A DNA stretch of 38,248 nucleotides from a virus, in IMG/VR virus record IMGVR_UViG_3300023174_000350, positions 1 to 38,248 of that record; one strand, written 5' to 3'. The notes under the pieces are model-generated. The model had not been told where the DNA came from and did not search any database. It saw nothing but the letters and a program-made list of their open reading frames with translations. This document shows positions 17,437-26,502 of this stretch, piece after piece. The translations under genes and the position numbers were made by a program. Numbering within the stretch: position 1 is the first letter of the stretch; each line of letters opens with the position of its first letter.

Positions 17437-18243
17437 ATGGCTATTTTATCCGACACAAAACAAAAGTCCCAAGGCTCGCATTGGTATACACTGGAGGGAG
17501 CGCCTTGTCACCAAGTCCCGAAGGCCAAGGGCGGGGAGCTGCGCAACGCTACCGTCGCGGACGCTCGCAAGCTGGGGCTTTTCCCCTCTGTAACGAATAT
17601 CTTGGGGGTGATCGCCAAGCCCGGCTTGGACACTTGGAAACTCCAACAGGTGGCGAAGGCTGCATTCAAGACCCCACCGGACGGCAAGGAGAGCGAGGAA
17701 TATTTCACCGACCGCATCATTGAGTCCGCTTTTGATCAAGTGGTTGATGCTGCGGATTTCGGTTCCCGCATTCATGACGCTCTGGAGAAGGTCTTTGAGG
17801 GCGAGAATCCCGATGAGGATTTGCTGCCTTATGTGCAGCCTACCTTGGCGTGGAAGGCTGAGAAGGGGCTGACCTTCACCCACCGAGAGATCACGCTCGT
17901 GAATGCCGGCGAGGGCTATGCGGGGCGATGCGATGTCTTGGCCAAGGGAAAACAGGGCCAGCTCGTGATCCTTGATTACAAGACCCGCAAGACGAAGCCC
18001 GGCGAGAAGGTGACCACCTACGACGGCCAAGGCATGCAACTCGCGGCCTACGCAGTCGCCCACTGGGGCGAGGCGATGCTGCCGAAGGTGACCGCGGCCA
18101 ACATCTTCATCTCCACCACGGAGCCGGGGCGCATGGAGGTCTGCAAGCATGAAGACCTGCCAGCGGAATGGGAGGCGTTCAAAGCCGCCTGCGTGCTCTG
18201 GCGCAAAACAAAGGGGTTCGACCCAAGGAGGATCGCGCTATGA
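17437..18243 (+). CDS. PD-(D/E)XK nuclease, RecB/Cas4-like exonuclease, 268 aa
   Basis: The active-site pattern of PD-(D/E)XK exonucleases is visible in order: His113 in GSRIHDALE, Glu151 in HREITLV, Asp166 in AGRCDVLAK, Asp180 and Lys182 in VILDYKTRK, and Gln201 in GMQLAAYA. This set is typical of RecB/AddB/Cas4-like nucleases and phage recombination exonucleases. Next to the SSB-like gene and the polymerase, it probably processes DNA ends during replication or recombination. No Cys cluster for an Fe-S centre is present, so it is not a standard Cas4. Confidence 0.8.
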   Translation: MAILSDTKQKSQGSHWYTLEGAPCHQVPKAKGGELRNATVADARKLGLFPSVTNILGVIAKPGLDTWKLQQVAKAAFKTPPDGKESEEYFTDRIIESAFDQVVDAADFGSRIHDALEKVFEGENPDEDLLPYVQPTLAWKAEKGLTFTHREITLVNAGEGYAGRCDVLAKGKQGQLVILDYKTRKTKPGEKVTTYDGQGMQLAAYAVAHWGEAMLPKVTAANIFISTTEPGRMEVCKHEDLPAEWEAFKAACVLWRKTKGFDPRRIAL

Positions 18244-18422: not shown

Positions 18423-18748
18423 CCCAACCCAATACTGACCCTGCTTTCCCTACGGAAAATTATACTTGGAAAGACGATAAAGGGGCGTGGCACACCTGTC
18501 CGCACTCCGGAATGTCTATGCGTGACTATTTTGCGGGGCAGGCTTTACCAGCTCTAATAAATGCCACTGCATTTTACCAACAAAAAGCTCAAGAAGAAGC
18601 GCTTGCTGAATATGCGTATAAATCTTGGAGAGAAATCCATAACGCTTTGGACGCAGATAATTTGCTTGAAGATTACATAAGTTGTTCTTGGGCGGCTTAC
18701 AAGATAGCGGATGAAATGCTTCGGGCTCGCCAGGAGGAGTCTGAATGA
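18419..18748 (+). CDS. Hypothetical phage protein of the 'MSMRDYFAGQAL' type, 109 aa
   Basis: The motif GMSMRDYFAGQALPALI is found in a widespread family of small phage early proteins of unknown function, which usually begin with a Pro-rich 'DPAFPT' stretch, as here. The rest is helical. Its DNA is more AT-rich than the flanking genes (for example around 18540-18680), suggesting a different recent origin. A strong GGAGG site precedes it and another lies in its 3' end, before the polymerase. Confidence 0.65.
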   Translation: MTQPNTDPAFPTENYTWKDDKGAWHTCPHSGMSMRDYFAGQALPALINATAFYQQKAQEEALAEYAYKSWREIHNALDADNLLEDYISCSWAAYKIADEMLRARQEESE

Positions 18749-20463
18749 CCCTTGCCGTTGATTTCGAGACTGACTGGTCCCGCGATTACACCGTTGCCGA
18801 CATGGGGGCATGGGCCTACTGCAACGACCCGCGATTCAACGCCTATCTGGTGGCATTCTGTGGTTCAGACGGATGGGAGTGGGTGGGACACCCGGCACAA
18901 GCTCCTTGGGCGAAAGCTCGGGAGTATGACCGCTGGTTGTCCCACAATGTGGGGTTTGATGCCGAGGTCTGCCGAGCTTTACGCGTGGAGCCTGCCAAGG
19001 TCTGGGACTGCACAGCGGACCTCATGGCCTACCTGCAATACCCTCGCGATCTCAAGGGAGCGTGCAAGGAGGCATTCGGCATCGATGTGGACAAGTCGGT
19101 GCGGGATCGCACCGGCGTGGCTGATCTCTTCGCCCCATCGGCAGGCGAGCTAAACGACTACGCATTGCAAGATGCCCGCCTGTGCCTGCGACTCTGGCAG
19201 AAGTTTGCCGTGCGCTGGCCGGAGTCGGAGAAGGAACTCTCTCGCCACACCCGTCTAATGGGCGCCCGTGGCATCGGGTTCGATACCTCAGCGGCACGGG
19301 AGGCCGTGGCGGGGTTGGGGGTGCAACTCGCGGAGACCGAGCGCACAATCCCCTGGGTGGCTCGCGGCCTCCCCCCAACTTCCCGCAATGAGCTTTTCCT
19401 CGAATGTGACCGCCTCGGGCTTCCCCGCCCGACGACCACTGCCGAGAAGAATCCCGCTTGGCAGGCATGGCTCGATGAACACGAGGCCCGGGTGCCTTGG
19501 GTGCGGGGGCTGAACCGCTGGCGGAAGCTCAACCGCACCCGTGAGGTGATCGGGGCGATGCTGGTGCGCACTGACCGCCAACGCCGTTTGCACTACGGCC
19601 TGCGCTACTACGGCGCGGCCATCACCGGCCGGTGGAGCGGAGCCGATGGGCTGAACCTCCAAAACCTTAACTCCAAGGACACCGAAGGCGGGATCGACCT
19701 GCGGGCGCTCCTCGTGCCAGCGCCGGGCAATGTTTTTGTGGTCTCCGACCTCTCACAGATCGAACCCCGCTGCATGGCAGTGATCTCGGGCGATGAGGAC
19801 ATGCTGACCTTTCTGCGCTCTGGCGCTGACCTCTACGAAGCCCACGCCAGGGCAACGATGGGATACTCAGACCCGCGCCCGCTGAAGGAAGTGGACAAGG
19901 GCATGCGGGCGCTCGCCAAGGCCCGCACCCTCGGGCTGGGCTACTCGTGCGGGGCAGAGAAATTCGTCGCAGTGGCCAAGATCATGGCCGGTCTGGACAT
20001 TTCCCCAGAAGATTCCGAGCGGATCGTGGCAGAATTCCGCGCCACAAACCCCAAAATCACAAGCCTCTGGGAGCGGATGCAACGGGCATTTCGACAGGCA
20101 AAGGGCAAGGTGTGGGTGGTGAAGACCGAAGCCGGGCGGGCGATGCGGTATTTCAACCCCGCAGATGGCCAAGCCTCCGCCGTAAAAGCCAAGCCACCAA
20201 CGAAATTCTACGGCGGCAAGCTGGTGGAAAACCTCATCCAAGCCACCGCCCGCGATGTCATGGCGGGCATGGTCCTTCAGATCGAGGCGGCAGGCTACCC
20301 CGTCGTGCTCCATGTCCACGATGAGATCGTGGCAGAAGTTCCGATTGATACCGCTGCCGAGGCCATGGAGGAAATCCGCCGAATCATGTCCACCCCGCCG
20401 GCATGGATGCCCACCCTGCCCGTCGAGTGCGAGGCGCATCTCATGGAGGTCTATGGGAAATAA
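18745..20463 (+). CDS. Family A DNA polymerase with 3'-5' exonuclease
   Basis: This replicative polymerase has 572 residues and two domains. The exonuclease part has Exo I (Asp6, Glu8 in VDFETD), Exo II (Asn68, Asp72 in SHNVGFD) and Exo III (Tyr139, Asp143 in YALQDAR), so proofreading should be active. The polymerase part has TGRWSG (295-300), motif A with Asp335 in DLSQIEPR, motif B around residues 388-403 (RALAKARTLGLGYSCG) and motif C His525-Asp526-Glu527. No 5'-3' nuclease domain is present. It overlaps the preceding gene by ATGA and its end overlaps the methyltransferase start. Confidence 0.95.
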   Translation: MTLAVDFETDWSRDYTVADMGAWAYCNDPRFNAYLVAFCGSDGWEWVGHPAQAPWAKAREYDRWLSHNVGFDAEVCRALRVEPAKVWDCTADLMAYLQYPRDLKGACKEAFGIDVDKSVRDRTGVADLFAPSAGELNDYALQDARLCLRLWQKFAVRWPESEKELSRHTRLMGARGIGFDTSAAREAVAGLGVQLAETERTIPWVARGLPPTSRNELFLECDRLGLPRPTTTAEKNPAWQAWLDEHEARVPWVRGLNRWRKLNRTREVIGAMLVRTDRQRRLHYGLRYYGAAITGRWSGADGLNLQNLNSKDTEGGIDLRALLVPAPGNVFVVSDLSQIEPRCMAVISGDEDMLTFLRSGADLYEAHARATMGYSDPRPLKEVDKGMRALAKARTLGLGYSCGAEKFVAVAKIMAGLDISPEDSERIVAEFRATNPKITSLWERMQRAFRQAKGKVWVVKTEAGRAMRYFNPADGQASAVKAKPPTKFYGGKLVENLIQATARDVMAGMVLQIEAAGYPVVLHVHDEIVAEVPIDTAAEAMEEIRRIMSTPPAWMPTLPVECEAHLMEVYGK

Positions 20464-21745
20464 TGTGGATACTACCAAAGAATTTACAGCTATCGAGTGG
20501 TGCGCCGGATACGGCGGGATTCATCTCGGACTTAAACGAGCAATCCCAAATCTGCGCGTCATCGCTTATGGTGAGATCGAAGGCTTCGCCTGCGCGAACT
20601 TGGTTGCAAAAATGGAAGCGGGACTCTTGGACCCAGCACCTCTCTGGACGGATATTAAGACCTTCCCATGCGAGGACTTTCGTGACCGAGTGGACCTCCT
20701 TGTGGCCGGTTACCCCTGCCAGCCATTTTCCGCAGCCGGGAAGCGACTCGGAGCAGAAGACCCTCGCCACCTCTGGCCACACATCGCCAGATCAATACGA
20801 GTTATTCGACCTCGACTATGCTTCTTTGAGAATGTCGAAGGACATATCTCCCTCGGCCTCCGAGAAGTCATTGGAGAGCTGGAATCAATCGGTTACAAAG
20901 CGGCGTGGGGAATATTCAGCGCGAGTGAAGTCGGCGCTCCGCACCAGCGGAAGCGGGTGTTCATCTTGGCCTACGATCAGAGCCAGCGAATACAAGGACA
21001 CTGGGCCGATTGGCTCCAAGAGTCACGACCACATGCTGGGCAAGGGCTACCTCTGCGCGGTGGTGACGCAGGATGCGGCGAATTGGCCGACGCCGACAAC
21101 TGCAGAGGCGGGGAAAATTGGAAATCAACCGAACTTTGGTCAGTTGGGCTTGAGCAATCACCCAGCAATTGTGGGGGGAATAGATCGCCCCAAGGGAGAA
21201 AAGTCACGATATGGCCAAGCCGCCCCGGCGAACCCCAGCACGGATGGGAGCCGCCAAGGGTTGTGGTTGACGCCAAGAGCCAACGAGCCGGACTCAGACA
21301 GCAACTTTGTGGCGAGGAATGCGGACAGGGGCGAGCATTGCCATCCGAGCCTGAGCCAACAGGCGAAAAGTATGTGGCCAACGATAACCGCCCACACGCC
21401 GGATATGGAGAGCAGCGGCCCGAACGGGAACGCAGGGACTTATCTGGCGGGGCAGGTGAAGGCGTGGGCAACGCCGAGAGTGGGTGGCGAGGAGAAAGCA
21501 GAAACGAGGTTAGCGCGAGGCAAGGACATTGGACTGCACGGCCAAGTCGGAGCGATGAAGAACACAGCCAAGCTCAACCCCCGCTGGGTCGAGACGCTTA
21601 TGGGCCGGCCGGTGGGCTGGGTTATGCCGAGCTGCAAGTCTCCTGTGACAATCGAACGGACGAACTGCGACTCCTCGGCAACGGAGTCGTGCCTGCCACC
21701 GCAGAGCGAGCATTCCGAACTCTTTGGGAGGGAATCATAAAATGA
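20453..21745 (+). CDS. C5-cytosine DNA methyltransferase
   Basis: The 430-residue product from the ATG at 20453 (or GTG at 20465) shows cytosine-5 methyltransferase motifs: motif I as IEWCAGYGGIHLGLKRA, motif IV PCQPFSAAGKR with catalytic Cys89, motif VI FFENVEG, motif VIII GAPHQRKRVFIL, and a C-terminal motif X (LLGNGVVPATAERAF). Motif I has WCAGYGG instead of the usual LFAGIGG. The long variable part (about 175-405) is rich in charged and Gly residues and has repeated ADA/VDA/ANA/GNA elements. A second open frame runs through almost the whole gene. It may protect phage DNA from host enzymes or mark it. The 3' end overlaps the primase gene. Confidence 0.88.
   Translation: MGNNVDTTKEFTAIEWCAGYGGIHLGLKRAIPNLRVIAYGEIEGFACANLVAKMEAGLLDPAPLWTDIKTFPCEDFRDRVDLLVAGYPCQPFSAAGKRLGAEDPRHLWPHIARSIRVIRPRLCFFENVEGHISLGLREVIGELESIGYKAAWGIFSASEVGAPHQRKRVFILAYDQSQRIQGHWADWLQESRPHAGQGLPLRGGDAGCGELADADNCRGGENWKSTELWSVGLEQSPSNCGGNRSPQGRKVTIWPSRPGEPQHGWEPPRVVVDAKSQRAGLRQQLCGEECGQGRALPSEPEPTGEKYVANDNRPHAGYGEQRPERERRDLSGGAGEGVGNAESGWRGESRNEVSARQGHWTARPSRSDEEHSQAQPPLGRDAYGPAGGLGYAELQVSCDNRTDELRLLGNGVVPATAERAFRTLWEGIIK
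20463..21740 (+). CDS. Overlapping long open frame inside the methyltransferase gene
   Basis: In the +1 frame relative to the methyltransferase, an ATG at 20463, coupled to the polymerase stop as TAATG, opens 425 codons without a stop. The predicted protein is not random in look. It has SSWPTIRASEYKDTGPIG, then repeated tryptophan boxes NWPTPTTA, LWLTPRAN, MWPTITAH and AWATPRVG, and near the end LNPRWVETLMGRPVGW. I recall proteins with such WPTP boxes and the LMGxPxGW ending being annotated beside or within phage DNA methyltransferases. It may be a real overlapping gene, a frameshifted C-terminus, or a conserved shadow of the methyltransferase. Confidence 0.45.
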   Translation: MWILPKNLQLSSGAPDTAGFISDLNEQSQICASSLMVRSKASPARTWLQKWKRDSWTQHLSGRILRPSHARTFVTEWTSLWPVTPASHFPQPGSDSEQKTLATSGHTSPDQYELFDLDYASLRMSKDISPSASEKSLESWNQSVTKRRGEYSARVKSALRTSGSGCSSWPTIRASEYKDTGPIGSKSHDHMLGKGYLCAVVTQDAANWPTPTTAEAGKIGNQPNFGQLGLSNHPAIVGGIDRPKGEKSRYGQAAPANPSTDGSRQGLWLTPRANEPDSDSNFVARNADRGEHCHPSLSQQAKSMWPTITAHTPDMESSGPNGNAGTYLAGQVKAWATPRVGGEEKAETRLARGKDIGLHGQVGAMKNTAKLNPRWVETLMGRPVGWVMPSCKSPVTIERTNCDSSATESCLPPQSEHSELFGRES

Positions 21746-22578
21746 ACGACGCCCTCGCTACAAATCTCCGCGCATGGCTCCGCAAAAAGGAGGCCGCTAC
21801 CATGTCCCTGCACAAGGCGATTTTCAAGATCGCCATCCTGTCCAAGGAGGCCGGACTACCCGCAGAACAAGCAGAACTCCTTTGCAAAGCCTACGCCGCC
21901 GGAAAGATGGCTCGACGGGCGCCTGAGCGTGAGATTCGTTCCGCCGTGGCCTGCGCCTACTCGGGAGAGGTCAAGCCGCAAGGCCCGCGCTTCCCCGCCG
22001 CCATGCCGGAACTCATGGCCGAGGTGGATGCCTACCCAGTGCCGGTCCCATACCCGCCCTACCCGCACAGCTCGCCCGAGGATTTCCTCGATAGGATGTT
22101 CCCCGGTGACCCTCTCCTGTGCATTGGCGCAACGGCCTTTGCCATGGATACCCGCCCGCTTTCCCAGTGGCGCGGACTCTTGGCAGGCATGCAGTTTCTC
22201 GTGCCATCCCCCATGACCTCGCCCACCGGCCCGCGCAAGGAAGATGGCGCCGAGTCCTTCCATGCTGAGAGCAACACGGGCGAACGGGCCTACCTCGTCA
22301 CAGAATTCGACCACGCAGGCAAACCCCAGCAGATGGCCAGAATCCGCGCCCTTGAGGCCCGTGGCACCCACAAGCTGGCGCTCATCGTCGATAGTGCCGG
22401 TAAGAGCCTGCACGCCTATTGGAAAACCTCGGGCGATGCCCACGCCGATTTCATCTTTTTTTCACACGCAACAAAACTCGGGGCAGACGACCGCCTCTGG
22501 CTACGCAGCCAGTTCGCACGCCTCCCAGCCGGTCAACGCGATGGCCGCAAACAAGAAGTCCTTTTATGGCAACCCTAA
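21742..22578 (+). CDS. AEP-like DNA primase, 278 aa
   Basis: The N-terminal third (about 1-70) is helical. The second half resembles an archaeo-eukaryotic primase catalytic core: an acidic motif in YLVTEFDHAGKPQQ, and a later SAGKSLHAYW that corresponds to the S-x-H nucleotide-binding motif. The protein sits directly before a RepA-like ATPase, a common primase-helicase pair in phages and plasmids. It would lay primers for the family A polymerase. The last acidic motif is not obvious, so the call is by pattern. The start overlaps the methyltransferase stop, and its end overlaps the helicase gene by 13 bases. Confidence 0.6.
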   Translation: MNDALATNLRAWLRKKEAATMSLHKAIFKIAILSKEAGLPAEQAELLCKAYAAGKMARRAPEREIRSAVACAYSGEVKPQGPRFPAAMPELMAEVDAYPVPVPYPPYPHSSPEDFLDRMFPGDPLLCIGATAFAMDTRPLSQWRGLLAGMQFLVPSPMTSPTGPRKEDGAESFHAESNTGERAYLVTEFDHAGKPQQMARIRALEARGTHKLALIVDSAGKSLHAYWKTSGDAHADFIFFSHATKLGADDRLWLRSQFARLPAGQRDGRKQEVLLWQP

Positions 22579-25089: not shown

Positions 25090-25325
25090 CGGCTAAAGAA
25101 GTGGGCTTTGATGGCGAGGCAAATATCTTCACCCCGACTCACTTTTCGGATTTAGCCCACCAGCGTTTAACCATTCGGTTTTTAAAAGGAAGAACTGAGC
25201 ACCTAAGCAGGGCGAAAGAAATGCCTAATCATTTCTTTTGGAATAGAGAGACGGAAACTTTCTACTACATCAACCCCGAAAAAAGGTTGTTTCGCGTCGA
25301 GTTTGTTGAGGAGGCCGCGAAATGA
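25086..25325 (+). CDS. Hypothetical early protein, 79 aa
   Basis: I recognise no family for this mixed alpha/beta product. It has an aromatic-rich stretch (FFWNRETETFYYINPEK) and ends EEAAK over the ribosome-binding site of the sigma-factor gene. The AT content is higher than in the structural genes. The start has GGAGGAGG nearby. Confidence 0.55.
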   Translation: MTAKEVGFDGEANIFTPTHFSDLAHQRLTIRFLKGRTEHLSRAKEMPNHFFWNRETETFYYINPEKRLFRVEFVEEAAK

Positions 25326-25855
25326 GCGAGGACGCAATGACATCCTGCCTCCAACGCATCGCCACCGGTGACCAAGACGCGATGACCGAGTTGTTCGCGC
25401 TCACCCAGCCAGACATAACGCGCATCATTGCATCCATCGTCCCGGCTGACGATGCCGGCGACATCTTTCAGACCGCCATGCTCAAGGTATGGCAAAAGGC
25501 CGAAACATTCCGCGCCGGGTCGCCCGTCATGCCCTGGCTTATCGGGATCGCTCGCCGAGCTGCCTTCGACCTCCTGCGCACTCGGAGGCGTCGTGTCGCC
25601 CTATTTGAAAAAAATAACGACTCGGAAGGCTCTCCCGTGCCGTCATTAAAGGAAGACCGGCGCGAAATCCGCCAACACTTGGACAACCTGCCAGAAATGC
25701 AAAGGAAAATCATCCGCCTGAGCTTTTTCAAAAGCCTTCCTCTCAAAGACATCGCCGCACTGGAAGGAATCTCACTTTTCACCGCCCGCACTCTTCGCCG
25801 CAAGGCACTTAACACGCTGAAAGAAAGCCTGAACCTTGAAAATCTCCTCGCTTAA
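25322..25855 (+). CDS. ECF-type sigma-70 factor, 177 aa
   Basis: This is a small sigma factor with regions 2 and 4 only. Region 2 shows DAGDIFQTAMLKVWQKAETF and then PWLIGIARRAAFDLLRTRRR, the classic core- and -10-binding parts. Region 4 shows LPEMQRKIIRLSFFKSLPLK followed by DIAALEGISLFTARTLRRK, the helix-turn-helix for the -35 element. Its place just before a Mor-like activator and the packaging genes suggests it directs host RNA polymerase to late phage promoters. It could instead be a captured host ECF factor that changes host expression. A GGAGG site precedes it; no anti-sigma gene is visible. Confidence 0.85.
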   Translation: MSEDAMTSCLQRIATGDQDAMTELFALTQPDITRIIASIVPADDAGDIFQTAMLKVWQKAETFRAGSPVMPWLIGIARRAAFDLLRTRRRRVALFEKNNDSEGSPVPSLKEDRREIRQHLDNLPEMQRKIIRLSFFKSLPLKDIAALEGISLFTARTLRRKALNTLKESLNLENLLA

Positions 25856-26033
25856 ATACAAAGACGGAACCGCACACCACGCAGCCCGTGGTTATGTCGT
25901 GCTCTGGGCAACGCTCATGGCACACGCCAAGCCAAACCATCGCGGCTCCATCGCTGAGATCAGCCGCGAAATGATGGAAGCCATCGATTTCGATGAGCAA
26001 CGCCAGGACAAAGGGGAGGCGCATGAACTCTGA
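25836..26033 (+). CDS. Small hypothetical protein, 65 aa
   Basis: The most likely start is a TTG at 25836, overlapping the sigma gene by 20 bases. There is no good ribosome-binding site, so the start is uncertain. The product holds a helical part with SIAEISREMMEAIDFDEQRQ. It overlaps the start of the Mor-like gene. The function is unknown. Confidence 0.4.
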   Translation: MKISSLKYKDGTAHHAARGYVVLWATLMAHAKPNHRGSIAEISREMMEAIDFDEQRQDKGEAHEL

Positions 26034-26502
26034 AATCCCACTGCCGCCCACGGCGCAAGTCGTTGCCGATGTCATCGGACGCGAGGCCACACTGGCCCTT
26101 GCCATGTCCTGCCTGTATCGCTGCCTTTATGTGCCAAAGGGAAAGCTGGCACCTGACAGCTATCTCGTGCGCACAATCGGAGAGGAGAAAGCAAAGCTCA
26201 TGCAAAGAGAGTTCTGCGGGATGCTCTTACCTCTGGCAACCTGCCACCACATCGCCGTCTTTGAACGCCAACAACGCATCCGCGCTGCCGTGGCAGAAGG
26301 AAAGACACACGCGCAAGTCGCAGTCGCGTATGGCCTCACGGTCAAATGGGTGCGCAACCTATGCGCTCGCAAGCCAGACGAGTATCGCTACCCACTCAAA
26401 GCCTACGACCAGCCACCAGCCAACTTAGGGGGGGTATTAGTTACTCCTGAGGGGGTTAGGGAGCGGGTGCTAGGAAACTCGCAGAGTTTGGTTAGAGATT
26501 GA
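26023..26502 (+). CDS. Mor/C-like transcription activator, 159 aa
   Basis: This resembles the Mor family of phage Mu middle-gene activators. The dimerisation part is PPTAQVVADVIGREATLALA with RCLYVPKGK. A middle helix is HHIAVFERQQRIRAAVAEGK, and the C-terminal helix-turn-helix is THAQVAVAYGLTVKWVRNLC. I chose the ATG at 26023, close behind GGGGAGG; an ATG at 25993 would add 10 residues. Together with the sigma factor two genes upstream it would form a late-gene switch. It ends shortly before the terminase genes; 26503-26550 is a short gap in which a late promoter could lie. Confidence 0.65.
   Translation: MNSEIPLPPTAQVVADVIGREATLALAMSCLYRCLYVPKGKLAPDSYLVRTIGEEKAKLMQREFCGMLLPLATCHHIAVFERQQRIRAAVAEGKTHAQVAVAYGLTVKWVRNLCARKPDEYRYPLKAYDQPPANLGGVLVTPEGVRERVLGNSQSLVRD

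Follow-up and report, generated by a model that had tools for sequence, protein, structure and literature searches.

The window, by which we mean the whole 38,248-nucleotide stretch of viral DNA analyzed here (IMG/VR virus record IMGVR_UViG_3300023174_000350), contains a C5-cytosine DNA methyltransferase frame, alpha, that is overlapped on the same strand by a second open frame, beta, at +1. The question is whether beta encodes a protein and, if so, how that protein relates to the methyltransferase. Our preferred answer, to which we give a probability of about 0.85, is that the two frames encode a split C5-cytosine methyltransferase, in which a catalytic alpha chain and a beta chain with the recognition region and motif IX would form the active enzyme.

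Layout of the overlapping genes

Reading the frames confirmed the original prediction that both are open across about 1.28 kb, and the W-box, RASEYKDTGPIGSKSHDHM and LNPRWVETLMGRPVGW features described for the +1 frame were all present. Beta (20463..21740, like the other parts of the locus and its two flanking genes on the plus strand) runs from the ATG at 20463, within a TAATG, to the TAA at 21738-21740 and has 425 codons. For the methyltransferase, a frame of 430 codons starting from the ATG at 20453 had been proposed. Its openness held, but that ATG, an annotation-style alternative start, was not conserved among the aligned loci; the conserved start was the GTG at 20465, which gives alpha 426 codons (20465..21745) up to the TGA at 21743-21745. 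Together the starts form the twin codons ATGTG (20463..20467), with the beta ATG at 20463-20465 and the alpha GTG at 20465-20467. The A of the beta ATG doubles as the last base of the TAA (20461-20463) of the upstream family A DNA polymerase gene (18745..20463; PF00476, E 4e-34). On the other side, the ATG of a 278-amino-acid gene without a PHROG match (21742..22578) overlaps the alpha stop (ATGA).

Relatives were collected by scanning viral contigs with each frame separately, which yielded 160 loci, 104 of them left after dereplication. The first scan was queried with beta and was biased toward open beta frames; the second was queried with alpha only, and its loci showed the same open +1 frame. 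Among the 104 dereplicated loci, the alpha start lay 2 nt 3' of the beta start in 80 and 5 nt in 19, and the alpha start codon was GTG in 81 and ATG in 22. In 103 of 104 loci, a beta ATG was found at the aligned position or close to it; since the assignment of the beta start demanded an ATG, the informative part of this result is its position. In 50 loci, no other start 3' of the upstream in-frame stop would retain motif I in alpha. Base conservation was low 5' of the beta ATG and high from the ATG onward, and therefore the homologous block begins at the twin codon. A Shine-Dalgarno-like 4-mer was found upstream in only 43 of 102 loci. The twin start codons (ATGTG or ATGNNATG), giving an overlap of about 100%, appear to be a new feature.

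Conservation and selection in the two frames

Both frames were open and conserved over their full length in the 104 dereplicated loci. In the set of 160, the +1 frame was open over most of the gene, while the +2 frame was broken every 35 to 125 codons in nearly all loci. The observed +1 open run was reached by 0 of 500 synonymous shuffles in 83 of the 104 loci, including the window, and by at most 17 of 500 in the remaining loci; in the +2 frame, these genes had a median of 17 stops. In four members of the window's family (L065, L070, L048 and L071), the frame ends lay about 150 to 800 nt apart, with one frame truncated.

Selection was assessed with an OLGenie-like script (not OLGenie itself) that classified and counted substitutions according to their consequence in each of the two frames. 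For the overall estimate, 31 independent pairs with 78 to 98% nucleotide identity were compared with 57 control gene pairs from the flanks. The share of third positions in the summed substitution rate was 0.41 (0.39-0.43), against 0.66 (0.63-0.70) in the controls. The dNN/dNS of beta was 0.56 (0.50-0.61) against 0.74 (0.66-0.84), and the dNN/dSN of alpha was 0.46 against 0.15. Because the shadow frames of ordinary genes also give 0.74, a raw dNN/dNS below 1 was not counted as proof, and only differences from this control value were used. The results showed that both frames are under purifying selection.

The regional analysis was based on 35 pairs, and gaps lower its reliability in the variable middle of the gene. 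Counts of nonsense changes in beta, which adjacent substitutions confound, were left out of it. Constraint was found in both frames at alpha residues 1-60, 126-178 and 249-272, and in alpha only at 61-125. It was weak in both frames at 179-248, and weak in alpha but mild in beta at 273-350. At 351-392, which holds a box of the LMGxPxGW type (LMG box), constraint was found in beta only (beta dNN/dNS 0.35 versus alpha dNN/dSN 1.15), and at 393-426, which holds motif X, in alpha only (alpha dNN/dSN 0.17, with beta at the control level, 0.78). Constraint thus passes from one frame to the other along the gene. Within beta, codons 1-60 were strongly constrained relative to the controls (dNN/dNS 0.31 [0.20-0.42]), and codons 61-125 were at the control level (0.75 [0.59-0.90]). 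Selection on parts of a beta segment overprinted on the catalytic domain also appears to be a new feature.

The original prediction had named stops in close homologues and random substitutions as marks of a mere shadow frame. Both were looked for, and the second frame withstood the checks. The proposal of a genuine dual-coding gene pair is thus strongly supported by the openness in 104 loci, the shuffles and the selection in both frames.

Distribution of methyltransferase motifs between alpha and beta

Alpha is a C5-cytosine DNA methyltransferase by profile (PF00145, E 2.7e-34; also phrog_363) and by its catalytic-domain motifs; motifs I, IV (PCQ), VI (ENV), VIII (QRKR) and X were invariant or nearly so. 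Its structural model matched M.HhaI (Foldseek E 4e-12) and also M.HaeIII. The catalytic domain with motifs I-VIII occupies residues 1-178 (20465..20998). The model was confident over most of this domain and over about 405-425, and of low confidence for 188-404 except about 250-270; it had no confident small domain. The linker was likewise largely unconstrained outside about residues 250-267, where WPSRPGEPQHGWEPPRVV (21212..21265) forms its main island of alpha constraint. Beta reads GQAAPANPSTDGSRQ over the same DNA, and both frames are constrained there (0.36 and 0.50). Motif X of alpha, DELRLLGNGVVPATAERAF ("RLLGNGVVP"), lies at residues 399-417 (21659..21715). The best PADLOC match of alpha (20465-21742) was the Druantia DNA cytosine methylase DruM2 (E 2.3e-37); such Druantia-like matches probably reflect the shared catalytic domain.

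Beta matched phrog_1008, a phage "DNA methyltransferase" family (E 5.6e-23), as did 79 of 80 beta homologues. Beta had no match in Pfam or NCBIfam, and a search of its profile against the PDB also gave none. The N-terminal segment (residues 1-125, 20463..20837) lies over the alpha catalytic domain. It is followed by a helix at residues 130-162 (20850..20948), opposite alpha motifs VII-VIII, where both frames are constrained (beta dNN/dNS 0.51, alpha dNN/dSN 0.35). When beta was modeled alone, this helix had block mean pLDDT values of 78 to 95 (residues 131-160), and the rest was mostly of low confidence (overall mean pLDDT 53.9). Such a poor model would fit a subunit that needs a partner, although it is not evidence for one. 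W-x-T boxes at residues 169, 208, 268, 305 and 335 (20967..21476) make up a proposed recognition region. The number of WxTP boxes ranged from 0 to 7 among homologues and followed beta length (r = 0.76), which suggests that the boxes are swappable recognition modules. Further downstream, beta carries AKLNPRWVETLMGRPVGWVM ("LNPRWVETLMGxPxGW") at residues 369-388 (21567..21626), which is the candidate equivalent of motif IX.

The identity of beta was approached through single-chain phage C5-methyltransferases, in which motif VIII is followed, within a single frame, by PTP boxes, an LMG box and motif X. An example is gp71 of mycobacteriophage IrishSherpFalk, which has motifs I-VIII, then LLPTP boxes, LNPAFPEWMMGWPTGW and RIIGNGVVP. 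By hhalign, window beta aligned with Paenibacillus-type beta (E 3e-31), Paenibacillus-type beta with the single-chain C-termini (E 1.2e-14), and window beta with the single-chain C-termini directly over the 22 columns of the LMG box (E 6.5e-6). The W-x-T boxes are tied to the single-chain PTP boxes via Paenibacillus-type beta. In a single-chain relative, the LMG box and motif X were collinear with M.HhaI 273-310 in the right order, an alignment that was subsignificant alone (-1.8 bits); the LMG box would therefore be motif IX by position. Given the order of parts after motif VIII in the single-chain enzymes, the best reading of these alignments is that beta represents the recognition region together with motif IX, the part of the enzyme that alpha lacks.

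Two-polypeptide enzymes of this class are already known. The M.EcoHK31I small subunit is encoded within the large-subunit gene in a different reading frame, and the beta gene likewise overlaps the alpha gene in the +1 frame. C5 methyltransferases made of two polypeptides occur in nature, as in M.EcoHK31I (YGGCCR) and M.AquI (CYCGRG), and in vivo complementation is also known for fragments of other enzymes of this type (PMC3404938). The large subunit of M.EcoHK31I carries motifs I-VIII and X, with only motif IX on the small one (PMC3404938). By motif layout, alpha resembles the former, and beta resembles the latter in its LMG box, which is constrained in beta only and homologous to the single-chain box. 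Unlike in M.EcoHK31I, the present pair is phage-borne, and beta is 425 residues long and starts 2 nt before alpha, so that the frames overlap almost entirely, catalytic domain included. The variable WxTP boxes are also in beta here, whereas the recognition domain of M.EcoHK31I has been placed on the large rather than the small subunit (PMC3404938). M.AquI likewise consists of a catalytic chain and a second chain that bears motif IX, but its motif X accompanies motif IX on the small subunit (PMC3404938), whereas here motif X is in alpha.

Since two-polypeptide C5 methyltransferases and complementing fragments are known, a split enzyme is the simplest account of the locus. Translation would start either at the beta ATG or, two bases further on, at the alpha GTG. 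Alpha would fold into the catalytic large domain, with motifs I-VIII and X, the cofactor and the catalytic cysteine, and beta would provide motif IX as well as the DNA-recognition region with its variable WxTP boxes. The two chains may then associate into an active enzyme that methylates phage DNA, presumably evading host restriction; this role is suggested by the usual function of phage methyltransferases. A more tentative idea, which we regard as possible but rather doubtful, is that the beta N terminus was born by overprinting and selected for a function of its own, for example keeping the subunits bound to each other or determining their ratio, and that the WxTP modules make a multispecific enzyme. 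If the N terminus does have its own function, the twin start codon would fix the subunit ratio.

Rival readings and phage relatives

Three other accounts of the second frame were weighed. That it is a noncoding shadow of the methyltransferase frame is very improbable. Shadow frames of GC-rich genes can run long (shuffled genes retained +1 runs of about 174 codons), and beta constraint was at the control level opposite alpha 61-125 and 179-248. However, the +1 frame was open in all 104 loci with fewer stops than in synonymous shuffles, third-position change was lowered, one segment was constrained in beta only, and the annotation of Paenibacillus phages treats a homologous second frame as a gene. 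The shadow reading was rejected on the shuffles, the third-position change and the regional constraint.

A second account is programmed ribosomal frameshifting, which would yield one chain by fusing the catalytic portion of alpha with the C terminus of beta, perhaps with a shift back for motif X. A joined product is plausible in the single-chain mycobacteriophage relatives, where the parts share one frame and the point at which the PTP frame switches varies. For the window it is unlikely: two shifts would be required to take in motif X, alpha constraint returns past the beta-only stretch, and beta has its own conserved ATG and a constrained stretch of 60 initial codons that would be absent from such a product. 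The C-terminus swap of the original prediction is thus disfavored. We consider it quite unlikely, too, that the methyltransferase gene is overprinted by chance with an independent protein of another function (antirestriction, a regulator or a partner). The N-terminal part of beta, partly conserved and without a counterpart in the frame of the single-chain enzymes, does suggest that at least this part is extra. But the single-chain relatives hold the PTP/LMG region within the methyltransferase itself, and alpha is unconstrained where motif IX should be. An antirestriction-type partner, as also envisaged at first, found no support: beta matched phage "DNA methyltransferase" families, and the profiles tie it to the recognition and motif IX region of single-chain methyltransferases.

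The proposed split-enzyme layout has parallels among phages. Gp56 and gp57 of Paenibacillus larvae phage Jacopo, both annotated as DNA cytosine methyltransferase, show the same +1 overlap, with the LMG box in a beta homologous to that of the window and motif X in alpha; unlike in the window, the Jacopo beta has 234 residues and starts about 200 nt inside alpha, without a twin start. In Arthrobacter phage Juno112 (gp41/gp42), the layout is AquI-like, with motif X in the +1 chain rather than in alpha. Mycobacteriophage methylase genes with the ShiLan insertion also contain a second open frame, but there the hidden frame encodes an HNH homing endonuclease carried by an insertion element (PMC11855218), whereas we take beta to be part of the methyltransferase. 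A literature search for papers on alternative-frame phage methyltransferases found none. The locus is a clear case of a same-strand dual-coding phage gene pair of about 425 codons with selection measured in both frames, and the split would explain why such phage "DNA methyltransferases" seem to be without motif IX.

Annotation can miss a beta-type subunit. Salmonella phage SEN5, Pseudomonas phage Haboob and three E. coli prophage loci each encode a +1 PTP/LMG protein with no annotated gene. The prophage loci are annotated "DNA cytosine methyltransferase" (L272:789-1958, L273:792-1820 and L274:801-1745); in L272, the methyltransferase is given as two pseudogene pieces, yet the frame is open throughout. 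Expressing alpha alone to test such a methyltransferase could yield a false negative. In four mycobacteriophage-type loci (L163, L173, L186 and L187), the point at which the PTP stretch switches from the +1 to the methyltransferase frame differs between relatives, and over motif VIII the PTP stretches remain open in the +1 frame.

Besides the polymerase, the window encodes a tail sheath, a terminase and a portal. The beta alignment gave ten cellular-genome matches; as most were records of Verrucomicrobiota type (Verrucomicrobia, Opitutae, Pedosphaera, Geminisphaera and Spartobacteria), the host likely lies within Verrucomicrobiota. A PD-(D/E)XK nuclease family protein is encoded upstream of the polymerase gene (17437-18243). 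An open reading frame at 25322-25855 matched sigma-70 regions 2 and 4 and may encode a phage sigma factor; after it, at 25993-26502, lies a Mor activator family match that fell just below the cutoff.
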